In this document: piece after piece, positions 3,072 through 52,295 of the stretch
Position numbering within the stretch: position 1 is the stretch's first letter
How the letters are laid out: every line of letters begins with the position of its first letter
DNA from: a bacterium (Candidatus Blackallbacteria) CG13_big_fil_rev_8_21_14_2_50_49_14
Lineage (GTDB): Bacteria > Cyanobacteriota > Sericytochromatia > UBA7694
Assembly: GCA_002783405.1 (NCBI GenBank)
Contig: PFGG01000064.1
Span: 62,001 to 126,000, forward strand
Direction: 5' to 3'
DNA: 64,000 bases
Notes under the pieces: model-generated
Database searches by the model: none
What the model saw: only the letters and a program-made list of their open reading frames with translations
What the model was told of the DNA's origin: nothing
Made by a program: the position numbers and the translations under genes

Positions 3072-3419
3072 ATGCCGTCGGCAGATCCTGAATCCAGCTC
3101 TCTTTCCCTGAACGTAATTGTTCTGGCTCCCGAATGGGAGAAGGTTTTAGGATCTGCTTTGCAGCCAACGCCTTTGGGTATGGAACTTCAGCTCAATGCC
3201 GCTTTGCATCAGCAATTGAATATCGCTTTAGAGCGTGCGCTGGATTATTGTTGGCAAGAAGGCTTTTACCGCACAGCCCTCTTGGTCGACCCCAGAATCA
3301 GGCGGCATTTACACCGCCTGATTGAAAAAAAATTTCCACGTTTGCCCGTGATCTCTTATCTTGAGGTGGCACCCGGTTATCAGCTGAATATTTTACAGAC
3401 GCTAAATCTCGAAGTTTAA
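3072..3419 (+). CDS. Orphan protein resembling the C-terminal subdomain of FlhA/SctV export-gate proteins
   Basis: Short protein of about 115 residues. Its second half (RTALLVDPRIRRHLHRLIEK, then FPRLPVISYLEVAPG, ending ILQTLNLEV) matches the layout of the last subdomain of FlhA/SctV: the 'LL..P.IRR.L.RL.E..FP.L.VLSY.E..P' stretch that ends these 650-700 residue proteins. No membrane part, no linker and no other flagellar or type III gene is nearby. The start at 3072 is the first ATG after the thiolase stop (8 bases away); an earlier frame opening at 3009 inside the thiolase would add 21 residues. No clear ribosome binding site is seen. It could be a relic, or a stand-alone domain that binds a partner as FlhA-C binds chaperones. 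The match is by eye. Confidence 0.6.
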   Translation: MPSADPESSSLSLNVIVLAPEWEKVLGSALQPTPLGMELQLNAALHQQLNIALERALDYCWQEGFYRTALLVDPRIRRHLHRLIEKKFPRLPVISYLEVAPGYQLNILQTLNLEV

Positions 3420-30190: not shown

Positions 30191-30934
30191 TCAGAATTTG
30201 TGAGGGGCGACCAGGCCTCGATCTTCGAGGTAGGTTTGAACGGTCCAATAGATTTCATCCCGCTCCGTGATTCCCAGTTTTTGGTTCACGGCATTTTGAT
30301 GGAGATAGGCACGATCTTCAACGGGATCTCCCCATTCAATCCCTTTGACTTTGTTGTAAATCGTGCCAAAGAGCTTTTCAAAATTGGAAATGACAGGGGT
30401 GTCTTTGGAGTGAACCATTTCATGGATGATCACCGAGGCCTTTTCGGCATCGCGCATTTTCCAGAAACGATCATCGAGTACCATATCGCGAAAATGGAGA
30501 TGGGCAGTGCCTTTTTCGCGGGCAACGGCGACCCAGGCTGCATAGATATCATGTTTGGCAAACAGGTCGTGAATGCCGTCATCAGCCAGGACAAAATCTG
30601 AATCATCCATTTTACGGAGTGCCTTGCCGATCTCAGGATCCACAGCCTCTACGATTTTAAAGGTAGGCTCAAGCGCAGCTTTGATCGAGGCTGGGCGGTT
30701 GGCCTTTGAAACTTGTGGAGTGGTATTGGCTTTGCCTGCCTCTTTGGGGTCAAAGGCGGAGAATAAATTCAAGGGCGCTTGGGGGACACGTGGATCGTGC
30801 TTGAGCTGGCGTTGGAGGGTGTCTTGAACCGTGGGGGCTTGTGCAGGAAGTGTTTTTGCCCGTTGAAGCGCAGGCGCTTGAGGTTTCGTGACTGTTTGAA
30901 GGGGTTGAACTGAAAAATTAATTGCGCCGACCAT
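30191..30934 (-). CDS. HExxH putative metallopeptidase with P/Q/A-rich N-terminal leader
   Basis: Protein of 247 residues without signal peptide. The first 65 or so residues are low in complexity and rich in Pro, Gln, Ala and Thr; the leader has the same layout as the protein at 47702-48349 (LQT.T..P.AP, then QD.L..Q, then a short FS). The C-terminal two-thirds is globular with IIHEMVHSKDTP (H171, E172, H175), a zincin-type site, and a possible third ligand in the acidic segment EWGDPVEDRAYLHQNA, where 'ED.AY' follows the pattern of other Met-zincins. Target unknown. Divergent from the phoD operon across a region with a 16-bp palindrome. Confidence 0.7.
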   Translation of the reverse strand: MVGAINFSVQPLQTVTKPQAPALQRAKTLPAQAPTVQDTLQRQLKHDPRVPQAPLNLFSAFDPKEAGKANTTPQVSKANRPASIKAALEPTFKIVEAVDPEIGKALRKMDDSDFVLADDGIHDLFAKHDIYAAWVAVAREKGTAHLHFRDMVLDDRFWKMRDAEKASVIIHEMVHSKDTPVISNFEKLFGTIYNKVKGIEWGDPVEDRAYLHQNAVNQKLGITERDEIYWTVQTYLEDRGLVAPHKF

Positions 30935-31153: not shown

Positions 31154-32512
31154 ATGGCACTGAATTTTTTGAAATCCTCCCTCTGGAAAACAGCCCTGAT
31201 CTCTTTGCTTTTTACCTCGCCGGTCTGGGCCGAAGCCGACTTGATTGCCGGTCCAATGGTGGGGCATACGGATACCCGGAGCAGCCAAATCTGGGTTCAA
31301 ACCGATGAACCTGGAAAAGTTCAGATCGAGTATTGGCTAAAAGGCTCTTCTAAATTGATGCGAAGCCCAGAAATGCTGACTTCTGAACAGAGCTGGTATA
31401 CAGCCCTTTTGCCGCTTTCGGGTCTGGAACCCAACCAAAACTACGAATACCGTCTGCTTTTAGATGGGGTGCCGATCAAGAAAGACTATTCCTTGCGTTT
31501 TCATACCCCAATCGAGTGGGCACCGGGTCAAACAGCACCTGATTTTGAAGTCATTACAGGTTCCTGCTATTACGTTAACGATGAATGGATGAAAATGCTG
31601 GGCATCGAATATGGTGGGCCTTTGCAGATTTTTACCACGATGGAAAAACATCCGGCAGACTTTATGCTCTGGTTGGGTGACAATATCTACCTGGCTCCTT
31701 TGGATGTCTCCAACCGCTGGCGCATGAATTCCCGCTATCGCAAACAGCGCTCCCAGACCTTGATTCAGCCTCTTTTAGGCAGAATGCCACAATATGCAAT
31801 TTGGGATGACCATGATTTTGGCCCCAATAATTCGACGAAAAATTTTCCGCTGAAAGATGTTTCGCTTGAATTGTTCAAAGCCTATTGGGCCAATCCCCGC
31901 TATGGGCTATTAACTGAAAACGGCACCTGGTCGCGGTTTCGCTGGAATGATATAGACTTTTTTCTGACCGATGGTCGTTATTATCGCGATGCCTTAAAGG
32001 TGCCTGAAGATCAACGAAGGATGCTGGGCTCCGTTCAAATGGCCTGGCTCAAAAATGAATTGAAGGCCAGCCGCTCTCCCTTTAAGATGGTTGTGGTGGG
32101 TAGCCCTGTTTTTAACCCCTATTATGATGAAAGTTTTGCGATGTACCCGCTGGAGTATCAAGAATTGCTGGAGTTTATCCGCCAGGAAAAAATTGAAGGT
32201 GTTGTCTTTCTTTCAGGTGATCGGCATCACTCAGATTTGCATGTTTTGAAACTGCCCGGTGTGTATACCCTTTATAATTACACCAATTCTCCCCTGACCA
32301 GCTCTCCGACCAAAATCATGAACAGCCAGGAATTGAATGATCCTGAGCGCGTGCCTGGAACGCTTGTAAAAGAACGCAACTATGGGGTTTTAAAATTTTC
32401 GGGGCCCGCAGGCCAACGTGTTTTGACGCTCGAAACCCGAGATGGTTCAGGCAAACTCTTTTGGGCCCACGAGATTAAAGAAGAAGATCTGCGGTTTCAG
32501 CCAACTCCATGA
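31154..32512 (+). CDS. PhoD-like alkaline phosphatase/phosphodiesterase
   Basis: Exported metallophosphoesterase of 452 residues. Signal peptide with cleavage in VWAEA near residue 27; N-terminal fibronectin-like domain (about 35-125; SSQIWVQTDEPGKVQIEYW); then the PhoD core with GSCYYVNDEW, WLGDNIY (Asp-x-Asn), WDDHDFGPNNS (metal-binding Asp and His) and FLSGDRHHSDLH. PhoD enzymes use Ca/Fe and split phosphodiesters and monoesters, releasing phosphate outside the cytoplasm. GGAGGAGC gives a strong ribosome binding site. The stop overlaps the next start (ATGA), so it is coupled to the nucleotide-carrier-like gene, which suggests use of external nucleotides or phosphate. Confidence 0.88.
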   Translation: MALNFLKSSLWKTALISLLFTSPVWAEADLIAGPMVGHTDTRSSQIWVQTDEPGKVQIEYWLKGSSKLMRSPEMLTSEQSWYTALLPLSGLEPNQNYEYRLLLDGVPIKKDYSLRFHTPIEWAPGQTAPDFEVITGSCYYVNDEWMKMLGIEYGGPLQIFTTMEKHPADFMLWLGDNIYLAPLDVSNRWRMNSRYRKQRSQTLIQPLLGRMPQYAIWDDHDFGPNNSTKNFPLKDVSLELFKAYWANPRYGLLTENGTWSRFRWNDIDFFLTDGRYYRDALKVPEDQRRMLGSVQMAWLKNELKASRSPFKMVVVGSPVFNPYYDESFAMYPLEYQELLEFIRQEKIEGVVFLSGDRHHSDLHVLKLPGVYTLYNYTNSPLTSSPTKIMNSQELNDPERVPGTLVKERNYGVLKFSGPAGQRVLTLETRDGSGKLFWAHEIKEEDLRFQPTP

Positions 32513-34065
32513 GAGAGGCTTCGGATTTTGAGCGTTTCTTCAGTTTGGTAACTGGGGCCCGCAAAAATGAACGGCTGAAAACCATTGCCAGTTTTTTGGC
32601 GATGTTTCTTCTGCTTTTGTCCTATTATATGGTCAAGCCCCTTCGTAATTCTCAGTTTCTAAAAGAATTCAATACAGATTATTTGCCTTTTTTCTTTTTG
32701 TTTACTGCTTTCGTCTCTGTGATTGTCACCAAGATTTTCAATTCTTTTTACAATAAAATTGAAGTTTTTCGCCTGGTGGCCTATTCGTTTTTTGTCATGA
32801 TGGCGTGTAAGCTTTGTTTTCATTTCTATTTGCCGGTGGGCGGTAAGACGGCCATTGTCCTGTTCTATATTTTTGCCTCGGTTTATTTTCTTTTGGCGAC
32901 TGCGGTTCTCTGGGGCTGCATCAACTATATCTTTACCTCAGAAGAAGGTGAACGCTGCTACAGTTTTATTGCCATTGGCAGTATGATCGGGGGCCTGGTG
33001 GGTTCTGAGATTTCAGCTGTTTTTTCACGCGGAACGCTCAGAAGTTATGCTTTGGTCTTTTCTGCTTTGGTGATGGGCAGTGTTTTGCTGTTTTTACTCT
33101 TGGCAGTTAAATCCAACCGCTCCCCGCTGCGAAAAAAAACTGAGCGAAAAAACAAATCGGAGCCGCAAGCCGGATTCTTTTCAGACTTTCAGGAAATTTG
33201 GGCCAATCGCTATGTGCGTTCTTTGGCAGTGATGATGTACGCGATTGCAGCCTTTAATACCGTACTTGAGTTTCAAAGCCAGAAACTGATTGATCAGCAT
33301 ATGGCAACCCAGGCCTATCAACAGAATTTTCAATTCCTGGAAAAGGCTTTGATGCAGTCTGGCAAACAGGTTTCAAAGGAGACGGGGTTTGAATTCGTCT
33401 TTGGGCTGAAGGATCAGCCTGAAGCACAGCGACCTGCGCTCATTTCAGCTTTTGTACAAAGCCACGATCTGAATTTGAAACCGGATCTGCTGTTTAAAAC
33501 CTATCTAAGTTACCAGGATAAATTGGAAGCTCAAACCCGCGAAGTTTTCTCAAAAATATATTTGTTTCAAAATATTTTAGGCATTGCTCTGCTCTTTTTC
33601 GTTTCCCGTTGGCTCTTTCAACGGATGGGCGTACGTTTCACGGTTATGATTCTGCCCAGTTTTTATACGGTGGTGATTTTGGCTTTGTTTTTTCCGATCA
33701 ATCTCTTGATGATTGAATCGTTTTTGGTAATTGGATATGGCTTGAATTATTCTTTAAATCGCGCGACCCGCGAACTCTTATTTACAAAAACCAGCGATTC
33801 CACCATTTTCCGACTTAAACCCATGATAGATGGGCCTGTTCGTCGCCTGGGAGATGTGACCATGGCACTTCTTAAACTGGCACTTACGGTTTTCTTTGTT
33901 CAATTCTTACATTTACCCAGTGTGCGGGCTGATCAGATTTTTTTCGTGACCAGCCTCGCGATTTTGGGTTTTTGGATCTACTCTGTCTGGTATGTCGGTG
34001 GACGCTATGACCAACTCAAACGTGAAAGCGCCGCCGGTTTGAACACAGAAAGCGAAGCCGATTAA
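32509..34065 (+). CDS. Npt/Tlc-like (NTP/NDP carrier superfamily) membrane protein
   Basis: Inner-membrane protein of 518 residues with about eleven hydrophobic helices. The opening FLAMFLLLLSYYMVKPLRNSQFL corresponds to the first helix of Tlc/Npt ATP:ADP carriers and their free-living relatives ('SYY..KP.R...'), and GLNYSLNRATRELLFT to the conserved late motif; a soluble insert of about 110 residues (about 245-355) separates the two halves. Obligate intracellular bacteria use Tlc to take up host ATP; relatives in free-living bacteria carry other or unknown substrates. It is translationally coupled (ATGA) to the PhoD-like gene and its end overlaps the convergent cytochrome gene by 4 bases. 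Confidence 0.75.
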   Translation: MREASDFERFFSLVTGARKNERLKTIASFLAMFLLLLSYYMVKPLRNSQFLKEFNTDYLPFFFLFTAFVSVIVTKIFNSFYNKIEVFRLVAYSFFVMMACKLCFHFYLPVGGKTAIVLFYIFASVYFLLATAVLWGCINYIFTSEEGERCYSFIAIGSMIGGLVGSEISAVFSRGTLRSYALVFSALVMGSVLLFLLLAVKSNRSPLRKKTERKNKSEPQAGFFSDFQEIWANRYVRSLAVMMYAIAAFNTVLEFQSQKLIDQHMATQAYQQNFQFLEKALMQSGKQVSKETGFEFVFGLKDQPEAQRPALISAFVQSHDLNLKPDLLFKTYLSYQDKLEAQTREVFSKIYLFQNILGIALLFFVSRWLFQRMGVRFTVMILPSFYTVVILALFFPINLLMIESFLVIGYGLNYSLNRATRELLFTKTSDSTIFRLKPMIDGPVRRLGDVTMALLKLALTVFFVQFLHLPSVRADQIFFVTSLAILGFWIYSVWYVGGRYDQLKRESAAGLNTESEAD

Positions 34066-35974: not shown

Positions 35975-37378
35975 ATGGGAAATATTTCTTCCACAAATAA
36001 TCAACCCTTGGTGAATACCCAGAATCTGCAAAAACCAGCAGCAGCGAAGCCTGAACTGGGCAAAACCACCTTAGAAAAATTCGGAGAAACCAAACTTGGT
36101 ACTTTTTACAAAGACAGCCCCGTACTTTCTGGGGTCGCAACCGGCATCACCGCCTTGGGTGTGGTGGGCTTGGGTCTGAAAAATCATGGACTGGGTGAAT
36201 TGCTTTTCAGCCGGGGAACTGGCGGTATTCTGGCCGGAGGTACTGGCGCGGTTCTACTCGAAGACGGCATTAAAGACATCCGTGAAGGAAGTGAGCTGAA
36301 AGGCAGTATTAAAGCCGGCGTGGGTGGTATTGGGGTGCTCGGCGGAGCTGAACTTTTGACCAAAGTTCCTGTCTTGAGCAAACCTGTTGAAGTGGTATTT
36401 AAAAATGGCTATGCCACAGGTGGTACGGCTTTGGCTGCTGGAGCTGCTTATATGATTAAAGACGGCGTAGAAGATCTCGCCAATGGCGACAAATTAGCGG
36501 GTGGTCTGAAGACGGCTGCTGGTGTCGCTGGTGGACTGGGTGCAACTGAACTGGTGGGCCGTCAATTTGGAAAAAGCCTTATCATTGAGCCCTTGGTCAA
36601 ACTTTCCTCAACCAAGGCTGCTCAAGGTTCTGGAGCGGTTCTCGGTGGAGCAGCCGCAGCAGGCCTGGTCACTGATGGTGCCCAGCGTCTGGCTGAAAAT
36701 GGTTCTTTCTTAAACGATGCTGCGGGTCTGGCTGAAGTCGCTGGTGGCGCACTCTTGGCCACAGGCAGTACCAGTCTGGCTGGACACGCTTTGGGTTCTG
36801 AAGCCCTGAAAACTGTGATGCCCAAAACTGCCAAACAACTCGGTGGCGCAGCCTTGGTTGGCACCTCTTATGTACTGGGCAAAGAAGCCGTTAAAAACCT
36901 AAGTAAAAATGGTGTGACCTATTTGGGCACTGCCGCTGCCACGGGCGCTGCCCTCTCTGCACTGGGTGCAGCTGAAACCTTTGGCGTCAACCGGGCGTTT
37001 AGCAAAGGCGGCCAATTTGCTGCCGCCGCAGGCGTTGGCGTCGCTTCAGGCTTGCTCGCCAAAAGCGCAATTGAAGACTTGAGTGATGGCAAACTGCACG
37101 AAGGCGCGCTGAAAGGTTTTGGCGCAGTCGTGGGCGGTGGCGCAGCTTTGGCTCTGGCCGATGTTCCAGGTGTTCGCCAAGTGGGTGAAAAAGTGCTCAA
37201 GGGCGCATGGGAAGGCGTCATTGCTCCAGTAGGTGAGTTTGCAGTAAAGAATCCCTTGGTGGCAATTCCCTTGGCTGTAGGGGGTGCATATGCCGTCTAC
37301 AAGCTGACCGACAAAGGTGGCAAAGCAGAGCAGGCTGAAGCTCCTCAAGCCGAAGCCAAGCCCGCCACTGAAAAATAA
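35975..37378 (+). CDS. Gly/Ala-rich tandem-repeat protein, unknown
   Basis: Protein of 467 residues with no signal peptide; the first 35 are polar. From about 50 to 440 there are about six repeats of 60-70 residues, each a pair of hydrophobic Gly/Ala segments joined by a polar helix: e.g. LLEDGIKDIREGSELKGSIK, then MIKDGVEDLANGDKLAGGLK, GLVTDGAQRLAENGSFL, VLGKEAVKNLSKNGVTYL, LAKSAIEDLSDGKLHEGALK. The constant part is 'x.xDGxxDL.xGxxLxGxLK.G.GxxGxLGxxEL'. Small-residue spacing is like glycine-zipper membrane proteins. C-terminus Lys/Glu/Ala-rich. Monocistronic with a good terminator. I know no family for it; membrane insertion or compartment-like assembly are both conceivable. Confidence 0.75.
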   Translation: MGNISSTNNQPLVNTQNLQKPAAAKPELGKTTLEKFGETKLGTFYKDSPVLSGVATGITALGVVGLGLKNHGLGELLFSRGTGGILAGGTGAVLLEDGIKDIREGSELKGSIKAGVGGIGVLGGAELLTKVPVLSKPVEVVFKNGYATGGTALAAGAAYMIKDGVEDLANGDKLAGGLKTAAGVAGGLGATELVGRQFGKSLIIEPLVKLSSTKAAQGSGAVLGGAAAAGLVTDGAQRLAENGSFLNDAAGLAEVAGGALLATGSTSLAGHALGSEALKTVMPKTAKQLGGAALVGTSYVLGKEAVKNLSKNGVTYLGTAAATGAALSALGAAETFGVNRAFSKGGQFAAAAGVGVASGLLAKSAIEDLSDGKLHEGALKGFGAVVGGGAALALADVPGVRQVGEKVLKGAWEGVIAPVGEFAVKNPLVAIPLAVGGAYAVYKLTDKGGKAEQAEAPQAEAKPATEK

Positions 37379-37391
37379 AGCTTGAAATCGC

Positions 37392-37426
37392 AGGCCCCGT
37401 TTGTAGAAATACGAACGGGGCCTTTT
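37392..37426 (+). terminator. Rho-independent terminator
   Basis: AGGCCCCGTTTGT / ACGAACGGGGCCT (13-bp stem, one G-T pair) with a 6-base loop, followed by TTT. It begins 13 bases after the stop of the Gly/Ala-rich gene. Confidence 0.88.
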
Positions 37427-39616: not shown

Positions 39617-40426
39617 ATGACTGAGATTAAAATCGGAAATGCAAGTTTAAGCGTTGAAGGCATTCGCCCCCTGAAAAAAGATGTTCAAGTCGATGAAAAA
39701 CTGAAAAATCAATTGGCCAAAGATGGCTTTGATTCCATTATCTTCAAAAAAGGCGACGAACTTTTCATTGCCTATCAAAAAAATATGAAGCTCGATGATT
39801 TGAAATTGAATCTGGATGTCAACACCTTTGATGTCAATTCTGCCTATGATGCAGGCCAACTGTCTGTAGACGGCGATGCCGTTCAGGTTTTGCATGTCGA
39901 TGATGAAAACAGAGATTCTTTCTGGGTTGCACCCTATAAAACCGCAGCCAGCGGTGTGAAGAGCCTGATCAACCATCCCTTTGGTAAATCTGCCATTCTG
40001 GGTTTTGTCGGGGGTGTGGTGACTTCAGTGGCGGGTCAGCATCTCAATATTGAAAAAAGTTACAAAACAAATTACAATGGTGCTCCAGTGAATCCCTCTC
40101 AGTACCGTATCTTTATGGGTACCTTGCTGGGGACTGCCGGTGGTGCAGTAGCGGGTGGTCTGAAAGCCGGTGCAGAACACAATGAACCTAAATTCTGGGA
40201 TACGGGTGCTGGGATTGGCACTGCTGCCGTCGGTTATGGCGCTGGTGCCTTGGCGGGTTGGGGTGGAAATGCCCTGGTCAATGTGGCCAAAGAAAATCCC
40301 AAAGTAACGGCAATGGCCGTAGGGGTTGCTGCTGTTGTGATTGGCACAGGTATTGCCTTGGATGCCATGTCAGACAACAACAAACCTGCTACCTACCGCG
40401 TGATCAATCAAATCTCTCAAAAATAG
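39617..40426 (+). CDS. Gly-rich protein with polar N-terminal domain, unknown
   Basis: Protein of 269 residues. Residues 1-105 form a soluble domain of alternating strands and helices (IKIGNASLSVEGIRPLKK, DGFDSIIFKKGDELFIAYQK); the rest has four hydrophobic Gly/Ala segments (FVGGVVTSVAG, LLGTAGGAVAGGLKAGA, GIGTAAVGYGAGALAG, MAVGVAAVVIGTGIALDAM) of glycine-zipper kind. No signal peptide. The start follows TAGAG within a weak SD (GAGGTAGAG). The protein ends at a good terminator, so it is monocistronic. Shares style with 35975-37378 and 51405-52295, not clear sequence identity. Confidence 0.7.
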   Translation: MTEIKIGNASLSVEGIRPLKKDVQVDEKLKNQLAKDGFDSIIFKKGDELFIAYQKNMKLDDLKLNLDVNTFDVNSAYDAGQLSVDGDAVQVLHVDDENRDSFWVAPYKTAASGVKSLINHPFGKSAILGFVGGVVTSVAGQHLNIEKSYKTNYNGAPVNPSQYRIFMGTLLGTAGGAVAGGLKAGAEHNEPKFWDTGAGIGTAAVGYGAGALAGWGGNALVNVAKENPKVTAMAVGVAAVVIGTGIALDAMSDNNKPATYRVINQISQK

Positions 40427-47701: not shown

Positions 47702-48349
47702 TTACCACTGAACGTGATCACCTTTTGAGGTGAAACGTTTGACGCTTGAATCCTGACCGGTATAACCGACATTAAAATGCTCACCTGCTTCATCTGGGAA
47801 AAACTGGATTTGAAAGGGGCCTTCTTTTAAGACCTGTCCATTTTCACGATCAAAGATTGCAAAATCGCCATTGGGAAGATCCACGCGCACGTGATGTTCT
47901 GGCGTAAAGCTGATTTGACTGGGTTTTTCACCTTGGATATGAAAAAATACGTTTGGAAATTTTCCGGGCGAGGGGATATTAAAGTTCATATCCGTAAAAT
48001 TCAAAGTATCGCGTTTGCCCTCGTGCTGACGCAGCATGATCGCCAAACCCTGGTCTGAGAGCAAATAGTAATAATTGCCTTCTTCCATTTTGACATGGGT
48101 AATTTGCACGCCAAAGGCATTGCGTGAATAGGTATAGTTCTCACGTTGTACCACTTCAATCGGGGGCAATTCAGGTTCAGCCTTTGAGAAAACCGCCGCC
48201 AAAGCCGGAATTGAACCTGTCTTTGCTGATTGCTTGAGCTGATCCTGGGGGGCCGCCTGAGAGGGGGCAAGGGGCTGAGGGGCAAGGGGACGGACGGTTT
48301 GGGTCTGCAGCGCAGAAATGGGAGCGCTTCTCAAGGCTTGAATCTGCAT
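47702..48349 (-). CDS. P/Q/A-leader protein, unknown
   Basis: Protein of 215 residues. The first 62 are low-complexity Pro/Gln/Ala/Thr, with the same order of words as the HExxH protein at 30191-30934 (LQTQT, P.AP, QD.L, VFS). The remainder is a beta-rich globular domain (NYYYLLSDQGLAIML, HHVRVDLPNGDFAIFDRENG, HFNVGYTGQD) with no catalytic motif that I see. No signal peptide. Divergent from menD-side genes by 90 bases, with a candidate promoter at 48372-48401. The shared leader in two different proteins suggests a sorting or tethering tag. Confidence 0.65.
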   Translation of the reverse strand: MQIQALRSAPISALQTQTVRPLAPQPLAPSQAAPQDQLKQSAKTGSIPALAAVFSKAEPELPPIEVVQRENYTYSRNAFGVQITHVKMEEGNYYYLLSDQGLAIMLRQHEGKRDTLNFTDMNFNIPSPGKFPNVFFHIQGEKPSQISFTPEHHVRVDLPNGDFAIFDRENGQVLKEGPFQIQFFPDEAGEHFNVGYTGQDSSVKRFTSKGDHVQW

Positions 48350-51404: not shown

Positions 51405-52295
51405 TTAGTTGTCTTGGGGTTTGTGGCTGGCGATCAGATTGAATCCTGAGAGGAATTCCTGGCCAACAAAACTTTCTTTGACCTGTTTGCCTGTCCAGGC
51501 GGCTCCACGGTAAACACCGTAGCCAACTGCGGCGACACCACCAGCAGCGACACCGGCTGCTTTGGCAGTGAGTTCGAGACCTGCCAGCGGCGCATAGACC
51601 ACCATACCGGCTGCGCCTTCAATCGACTGAGCTGCGCCATCAATCACGGTGCCCATGCCTTGCCCAGCTTGAGCAAAGCCTTCGCCCATATTCTGCATGG
51701 GGGTTTTGCTGTCATAAACCACGCGGCCGCCGGTTAAGGCGATTGCGGCACGACCTGTGCCTTCCAGAGCACCGGCAGGTGCATAAACTGCAGCTTTGCC
51801 AACACCGTAAAGGGTTTCGCCCATGCCTTGCGCTTGGGTGGCAGAACCTTGCCAGAAGCGGTTAAAAGAACCTGCAAATCTTTCAGTAAAACGAACCCGG
51901 CCATTATTGGCGGGAGGGTTGTTGACCGGGCCATTGACAGGGGGTTGAAAAGGTTGGTCAAAGACGGGAGCTGTGCCATTGGGAGCGCCATGAGCGGGTT
52001 GACCGGGGCAAGGCATTCCGGGCTTGGTGGGGATCGGGAAAAAGGGCTGAGGAGCGGCTGAAGGGCCTCCCATGAAATATTCGTCTTGGCCCACTTTGAC
52101 AAAATGAATTTCTTCTTTGGGAACACGGGGAGAAACATTCAAACGGCCCGTGTCGAACTGCATATGAGAGACATCGCGTTGAATCTGGGTATAAACGGGA
52201 TTGTTGCCACGTGCCAAAGTCTGAACAGTCTGAGGTGTATATCTGAACTGAAAATTCCCTGTTTCGGAGGGTCTGTAAGCGGCTACGGCTGTCAT
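51405..52295 (-). CDS. Gly/Ala-rich amphipathic-segment protein, unknown
   Basis: Protein of 296 residues without signal peptide. Residues 1-120 are Pro/Gln/Asn-rich with a central PPVNGPVNNPPANNG. Thereafter come several Gly/Ala-rich segments (GMGETLYGVGKAAVYAPAGA, GTGRAAIALTGGRVVYD, GAAGMVVYAPLAGLEL, GVAAGGVAAVGYGVYRG), with two near-copies of 'AAVYAPAGALEGT / GMVVYAPLAGLELT', so a duplicated unit of about 85 residues. The last 30 residues are mixed. Monocistronic with a good terminator. I know no family; it belongs in style with the two Gly-rich proteins at 35975 and 39617. Confidence 0.68.
   Translation of the reverse strand: MTAVAAYRPSETGNFQFRYTPQTVQTLARGNNPVYTQIQRDVSHMQFDTGRLNVSPRVPKEEIHFVKVGQDEYFMGGPSAAPQPFFPIPTKPGMPCPGQPAHGAPNGTAPVFDQPFQPPVNGPVNNPPANNGRVRFTERFAGSFNRFWQGSATQAQGMGETLYGVGKAAVYAPAGALEGTGRAAIALTGGRVVYDSKTPMQNMGEGFAQAGQGMGTVIDGAAQSIEGAAGMVVYAPLAGLELTAKAAGVAAGGVAAVGYGVYRGAAWTGKQVKESFVGQEFLSGFNLIASHKPQDN

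Follow-up and report, generated by a model that had tools for sequence, protein, structure and literature searches.

The window, i.e. the whole stretch of 64,000 nucleotides analysed here, holds an open reading frame at 35975-37378 (+) that encodes a protein of 467 amino acids. The ortholog L025 (MAG_89) is 93% identical, and the two genes gave a dN of 0.037 and a dS of 0.95 (dN/dS = 0.04), from which we conclude that the protein is real and constrained by purifying selection. It belongs to a repeat family that comprises three ortholog groups (A, B and C) in its own taxonomic family, along with additional members elsewhere in the class Sericytochromatia. The features of the gene are as follows.

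35975-37378, +: whole gene, founding example of the repeat family, group A (open reading frame, homologues, dN/dS)
35975-36115, +: polar N-terminal segment, residues 1-47, rich in Gln/Pro/Ala/Lys, by eye without a signal-peptide-like stretch (sequence)
36116-36220, +: N-terminal half repeat, residues 48-82, including the most hydrophobic stretch, 50-68 (paralog alignment, hydrophobicity)
36221-36418, +: repeat 1, residues 83-148 (repeat HMM)
36419-36631, +: repeat 2, residues 149-219, with DGVEDLANG (repeat HMM)
36632-36841, +: repeat 3, residues 220-289, counterpart of the paralogs' third-from-last repeat (HMM, repeat identities)
36842-37018, +: repeat 4, residues 290-348 (HMM, repeat identities)
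37019-37201, +: repeat 5, residues 349-409, the most divergent (HMM, repeat identities)
37238-37306, +: C-terminal 'FAVKNPLVAIPLAVGGAYAVYKL' segment, residues 422-444, a candidate tail anchor that family members conserve (family alignment, motif search)
37307-37375, +: C-terminal tail, residues 445-467, rich in Lys/Glu/Ala/Pro (sequence)
37393-37426, +: intrinsic-terminator-like hairpin with a 13 bp stem and a GAAA loop, plus UUUU (folding)

A divergent DUF2490 gene and a SoxA/TsdA-type cytochrome c gene lie upstream of this gene; its downstream neighbour is a B12-binding radical SAM gene. The first-pass annotation, made by a model from the letters alone, had called a strong terminator behind the gene, in agreement with the hairpin found by folding at 37393-37422 (z = -5.5; folded stretch, -27.1 kcal/mol) and the four U that follow it; a generic terminator scanner missed this hairpin because it demands five T. 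Family genes stand alone, without conserved operon partners, and a comparison of gene neighbourhoods in groups B and C did not reveal a conserved operon. A protein with an N-terminal 'GIRPL' domain is encoded near the group A gene (two genes downstream in the source genome, G000, and in G001; adjoining in G002), which is a loose association at best. Gly-rich proteins with this common 'GIRPL...' domain are encoded at 39617-40426 (+) of the window, at L031:7473-8384 and at L070:931-1848, and a Pfam search with the window and L031 copies yielded no match. In G004, the 'GIRPL...' protein adjoins a protein rich in beta-strands, which contains a KDNP-type helix as well. A group B gene of the family sits beside a flagellin gene and a short three-repeat relative at L033:5764-9839 (G003:C449).

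Several other proteins were noticed in the window and in related genomes. A short window frame at 3099-3377 (+) matches FHIPEP at its C-terminal end (E = 7e-11) and represents a stand-alone FlhA C-terminal piece, as is also present in other class genomes. Full-length FlhA/SctV-type genes of the source genome lie at G000:C55:46084-48096 (L117:8977-11151) and G000:C57:15383-17353 (L118:9339-11426), one within a flagellar cluster and the other an orphan with no flagellar genes beside it. Two copies are also carried by most of the remaining well-assembled genomes of the class. The products of the window frames 30191-30934 (-), 47702-48349 (-) and 51405-52295 (-) had no Pfam match, and their Gln/Pro/Ala-rich N-termini, which are not signal-peptide-like, resemble in style the N-terminal segment of the repeat family. 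L102:2128-3963 (-) and L101:3968-5794 (+) encode proteins of about 610 amino acids without an obvious signal peptide, with beta-strand-like repeats ending in FDW/FNW, similar to an outer-membrane beta signal; a Gly/Ala helix separates their strand-rich parts. The same genome encodes a LysM-domain protein (L103:6248-7924 (-); PF01476, E = 1e-9), likewise without an obvious signal peptide, that combines a Pro/Gln-rich N-terminus with a Gly/Ala-rich helix.

Repeat architecture

Comparison of the protein with itself resulted in a peak at an offset of 66 residues (score 79, versus 37 ± 5 and a maximum of 55 in 200 shuffles), and the offsets 137 and 201, near two and three times 66, were also in the top four. 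A repeat HMM was built from the repeats of the paralogs, with the ortholog group of the window protein left out of training. It detected the stretches 83-134, 149-199, 221-287, 290-337 and 350-409 in the window protein, at 35.5, 44.5, 34.3, 31.0 and 17.2 bits, respectively, versus 9.6 bits for the best shuffled stretch (1000 shuffles). Internal repeats, on which the first-pass annotation had made its reading depend, are therefore present (17-44 bits versus at most 9.6 in shuffles). About six of them, of 60-70 residues, had been described; we find five full repeats of 59-71 residues each, a half repeat before them and a helix-like tail after them. In the paralogs, the stretch ahead of repeat 1 aligns with the latter half of the repeat model, indicating that the row begins with a half repeat. 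The unit 'DGxxDLxxG' noted earlier occurs literally in repeat 2 only (DGVEDLANG), with DGIKDIREG in repeat 1 and looser versions in the other repeats (DGAQRLAENG, KEAVKNLSKNG and KSAIEDLSDG).

The repeat consensus comprises 64 positions: GGAALAAAGAALGKDGVEDLKEGNTLKGAAEATGGALAALGGAELVGRALGIPVLEKALSKPAK. Charged residues are absent from columns 1-6 and nearly absent up to column 13, columns 14-25 are polar, columns 32-43 carry no or almost no charge, and columns 48-61 contain charges together with an IPVL motif. Glu is conserved at columns 31 and 44. AlphaFold2 outputs for the window protein with two orthologs (mean pLDDT 32) and for a two-repeat fragment with six rows (pLDDT 50) were all helix, with turns at EGS and NGD sites, and are both too low in confidence to serve as a fold. 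An all-helical fold is partly supported by these models.

Distribution and history of the family

Searches of Pfam, NCBIfam, PHROGs, PADLOC and PDB sequences gave no match for the window protein, in keeping with the annotation, to which the family was unfamiliar, and the other family members had no match in Pfam, NCBIfam, PADLOC or PDB sequences. At E <= 1, Pfam returned 0 families for the window protein and one unrelated match only for 11 family members. Weak matches (E 0.004-0.3) to AIRC, PglX, MyrrCad and tail fibre models were mutually unrelated and inconsistent, and we regard them as composition effects. Judged by its sequences, this is an undescribed family with no counterpart in the family libraries searched. 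A phage-derived origin was rejected, with no relatives in phages, plasmids or viral contigs and a best PHROGs match of E = 0.25, as was a role as contractile injection cargo, the sheath gene being distributed differently from the family.

The source genome encodes three family proteins, one each on C64 (the window protein), C7 and C74. The search for homologues that the annotation had proposed found relatives in 7 of 18 Sericytochromatia genomes, namely all five of the own taxonomic family and two of family f4, and in 0 of the 368 phylum genomes outside the class (386 genomes searched, top three candidates per genome scored). As far as tested, the family appears to be restricted to Sericytochromatia, which are non-photosynthetic relatives of cyanobacteria. 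In the unrooted tree, the proteins of family f1 fall with high support into group A (window protein, G001 and G002) and group B, and the longer group C proteins stand beside them. There is also a further diverged set of shorter relatives (264-324 residues). Five full repeats are found per member in groups A and B and six in group C (eight in G001), while the G011 members have six and three and the G017 member has three.

Within the window protein, the identity from repeat to repeat does not exceed 36%, whereas the identity between its repeats 3 and 4 and the same-position repeats of groups B and C is 44-45%. The repeats of B and C in turn pair by position, at 41-70% identity. Repeat 5 of the window protein is the exception, with its best match at other positions. 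Since most repeats are more similar to the repeat at the same position in paralogs than to adjacent repeats, the row predates the paralog split. It is thus old and ordered, with the order fixed before the paralogs separated. The copy number changed later, both among the central group C repeats and, in the longest member, close to the C-terminus.

Possible membrane association and scaffold role

Gly and Ala make up 34% of the window protein, so that the Gly/Ala-rich character described earlier stands. The proposed glycine zipper does not: GxxxG pairs are not enriched (12 observed versus 14.5 ± 3.1 in shuffles), while the pattern small-xxx-small-xxx-small was counted 25 times versus 18.7 ± 4.5 in shuffles. 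Helices were scored on a simplified scale, with residue values of the Hessa biological scale and a simplified position weighting of our own. On this scale the G/A helices range from +1.8 to +5.3, including the first helix at +1.8, and the tail reaches +2.9, compared to -2.9 for glycophorin A, while in the transporter-like neighbour 32509-34065 the ten best segments lie between -3.2 and +1.1; several helices of transmembrane-grade hydrophobicity are thus not found in the window protein. The first helix (residues 50-68) has the highest mean Kyte-Doolittle value of the chain, 1.89.

A polytopic integral membrane protein, in which each A-B hairpin provides two crossings (about 12 in total with the first helix and the tail) and Gly/Ala mediates helix packing, would be consistent with the two uncharged stretches per repeat and the acidic turn between them, as well as with a GRAVY of 0.19-0.39 in 15 of 15 members. 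Of the five turns in the window protein, four have a net charge of -2, and the linkers carry 0 to +2, which would suit a positive-inside arrangement. However, this charge asymmetry is weak across 81 family repeats (turn mean -0.58, linker mean +0.30, with the expected sign in 53% and 40%), the uncharged stretches span only 12-14 residues, and the two conserved Glu as well as the absence of a GxxxG excess count against such a protein. The G/A helices moreover score +2.4 to +5.3 versus -3.2 to +1.1 in the neighbour 32509-34065. Because all candidate helices are marginally hydrophobic, a classical polytopic protein is not supported, and we consider this topology unlikely. The membrane protein suggested by the annotation is thereby weakened in its polytopic form, while the first helix and the tail stand as plausible anchors.

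The same marginal hydrophobicity, the varying repeat number and the long polar N- and C-terminal tails would fit a soluble cytosolic alpha-helical repeat protein, a solenoid or bundle without a membrane role that uses Gly/Ala for tight helix packing. The first 47 residues are polar and, by eye, free of any signal-peptide-like stretch, as the annotation had stated. We nevertheless doubt that the protein is simply soluble, since it would be unusual for a soluble solenoid to have a positive GRAVY and a C-terminal segment such as the conserved KNP...AYAYYKNK. Groups A, B and C all conserve the corresponding KNP...AYAVYK segment, with a looser version in f4. A search with the KNP tail motif covered 17 genomes; in the own genome, only the 39617 neighbour and the three proteins of the family matched strongly, and a genome-wide anchoring module was rejected.

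Membrane proteins secreted by type III/IV systems are described as having helices of weak hydrophobicity, which insert yet avoid inner-membrane targeting (PMC6110835). Many moderately hydrophobic helices without a signal-peptide-like segment could likewise belong to a protein exported by a non-Sec route and inserting into a membrane later, its helices being just hydrophobic enough for this and too weak for inner-membrane targeting. A FlhA/SctV-type protein is encoded by 17 of 18 class genomes, the G003 family gene neighbours flagellin and a three-repeat relative, and Cys occurs once in 7324 family residues versus 134 times in the 18846 residues of window ORFs of at least 200 amino acids. The low Cys content may reflect selection against Cys or simply composition. 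We regard non-Sec export as improbable: FlhA-type proteins are near-universal in the class and the family is found in only 7 of 18 genomes, the export apparatus copy on C57 is flagellar, the flagellin neighbourhood is confined to one genome, and neither a secretion signal nor neighbouring machinery was found. It is highly improbable that the family consists of Sericytochromatia-specific repeat proteins exported without a signal peptide, whose weakly hydrophobic, Cys-free G/A hairpins escape inner-membrane targeting and insert into a membrane, that of their own envelope or of another cell.

The annotation had also called the protein shell-like, and a shell, vesicle or compartment-forming protein has little to recommend it beyond a general likeness of small hydrophobic repeated units. 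Pfam and NCBIfam gave no match to any family of shells, encapsulins or gas vesicles, there is no conserved gene cluster, and the repeats are unequal and ordered; we regard this reading as very improbable. We drop the shell and glycine-zipper labels and keep the membrane label as a possibility.

We tentatively favor an elongated scaffold of helical-hairpin repeats, amphitropic or tail-anchored at the membrane, a reading in which the stacking, the membrane association and the scaffold role are inferred. In each repeat, helix A would consist of 13 uncharged G/A-rich positions and a polar end (e.g., KDGVEDL), and a polar turn (EGN/NGD) would lead to the G/A-rich helix B ending in AELVGRQ and then to a linker helix C (NIPVLKEAL). 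The hairpins could pack side by side via small residues into an elongated helical stack, which the hydrophobic first helix and the C-terminal segment might hold at the membrane, where the protein, adjustable in length, would act as a scaffold or organise the surface. The internal repeats are significant, and their number varies among homologs from 3 to 8. This variation, together with position-matched repeats, is usual for repeat scaffolds and unusual for channels, which argues for the scaffold reading. Membrane contact via the first helix and the C-terminal tail is plausible from their sequences, although both (+1.8 and +2.9) fall short of a clear transmembrane helix.

The analysis defines an undescribed, expanded repeat-protein family in a poorly known sister lineage of cyanobacteria, and a real structural role in these cells is suggested by three ancient paralogs that have a fixed repeat order and are under strong purifying selection. 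If the hairpins bind membranes despite their weak hydrophobicity, they would provide a case for Gly/Ala helices choosing between soluble, peripheral and inserted states.

Among known systems, glycine-zipper and DUF883-type small membrane proteins share Gly/Ala-rich helices with the window protein, which differs by the lack of a Pfam match at E <= 1 and of a GxxxG excess, by a much longer repeat unit with polar halves, and by its linker helix. Gly/Ala helices and a KENP/KDNP-type helix are also present in the 39617-40426 protein, two genes downstream, and in relatives of about 300 amino acids (L093, L095 and L087). The former differs in its N-terminal domain and gave no match to the repeat; the latter, shorter and diverged compared to the window protein, contain about three repeat-like units and match the family weakly. 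Alpha-helical tandem-repeat (solenoid-type) scaffolds differ from the window protein, which is Gly/Ala-rich and net hydrophobic, has a hydrophobic first helix and a tail segment, and matches no Pfam repeat family, but they resemble it in their helical repeats of about 65 residues, which are variable in number, ordered and divergent within the chain.
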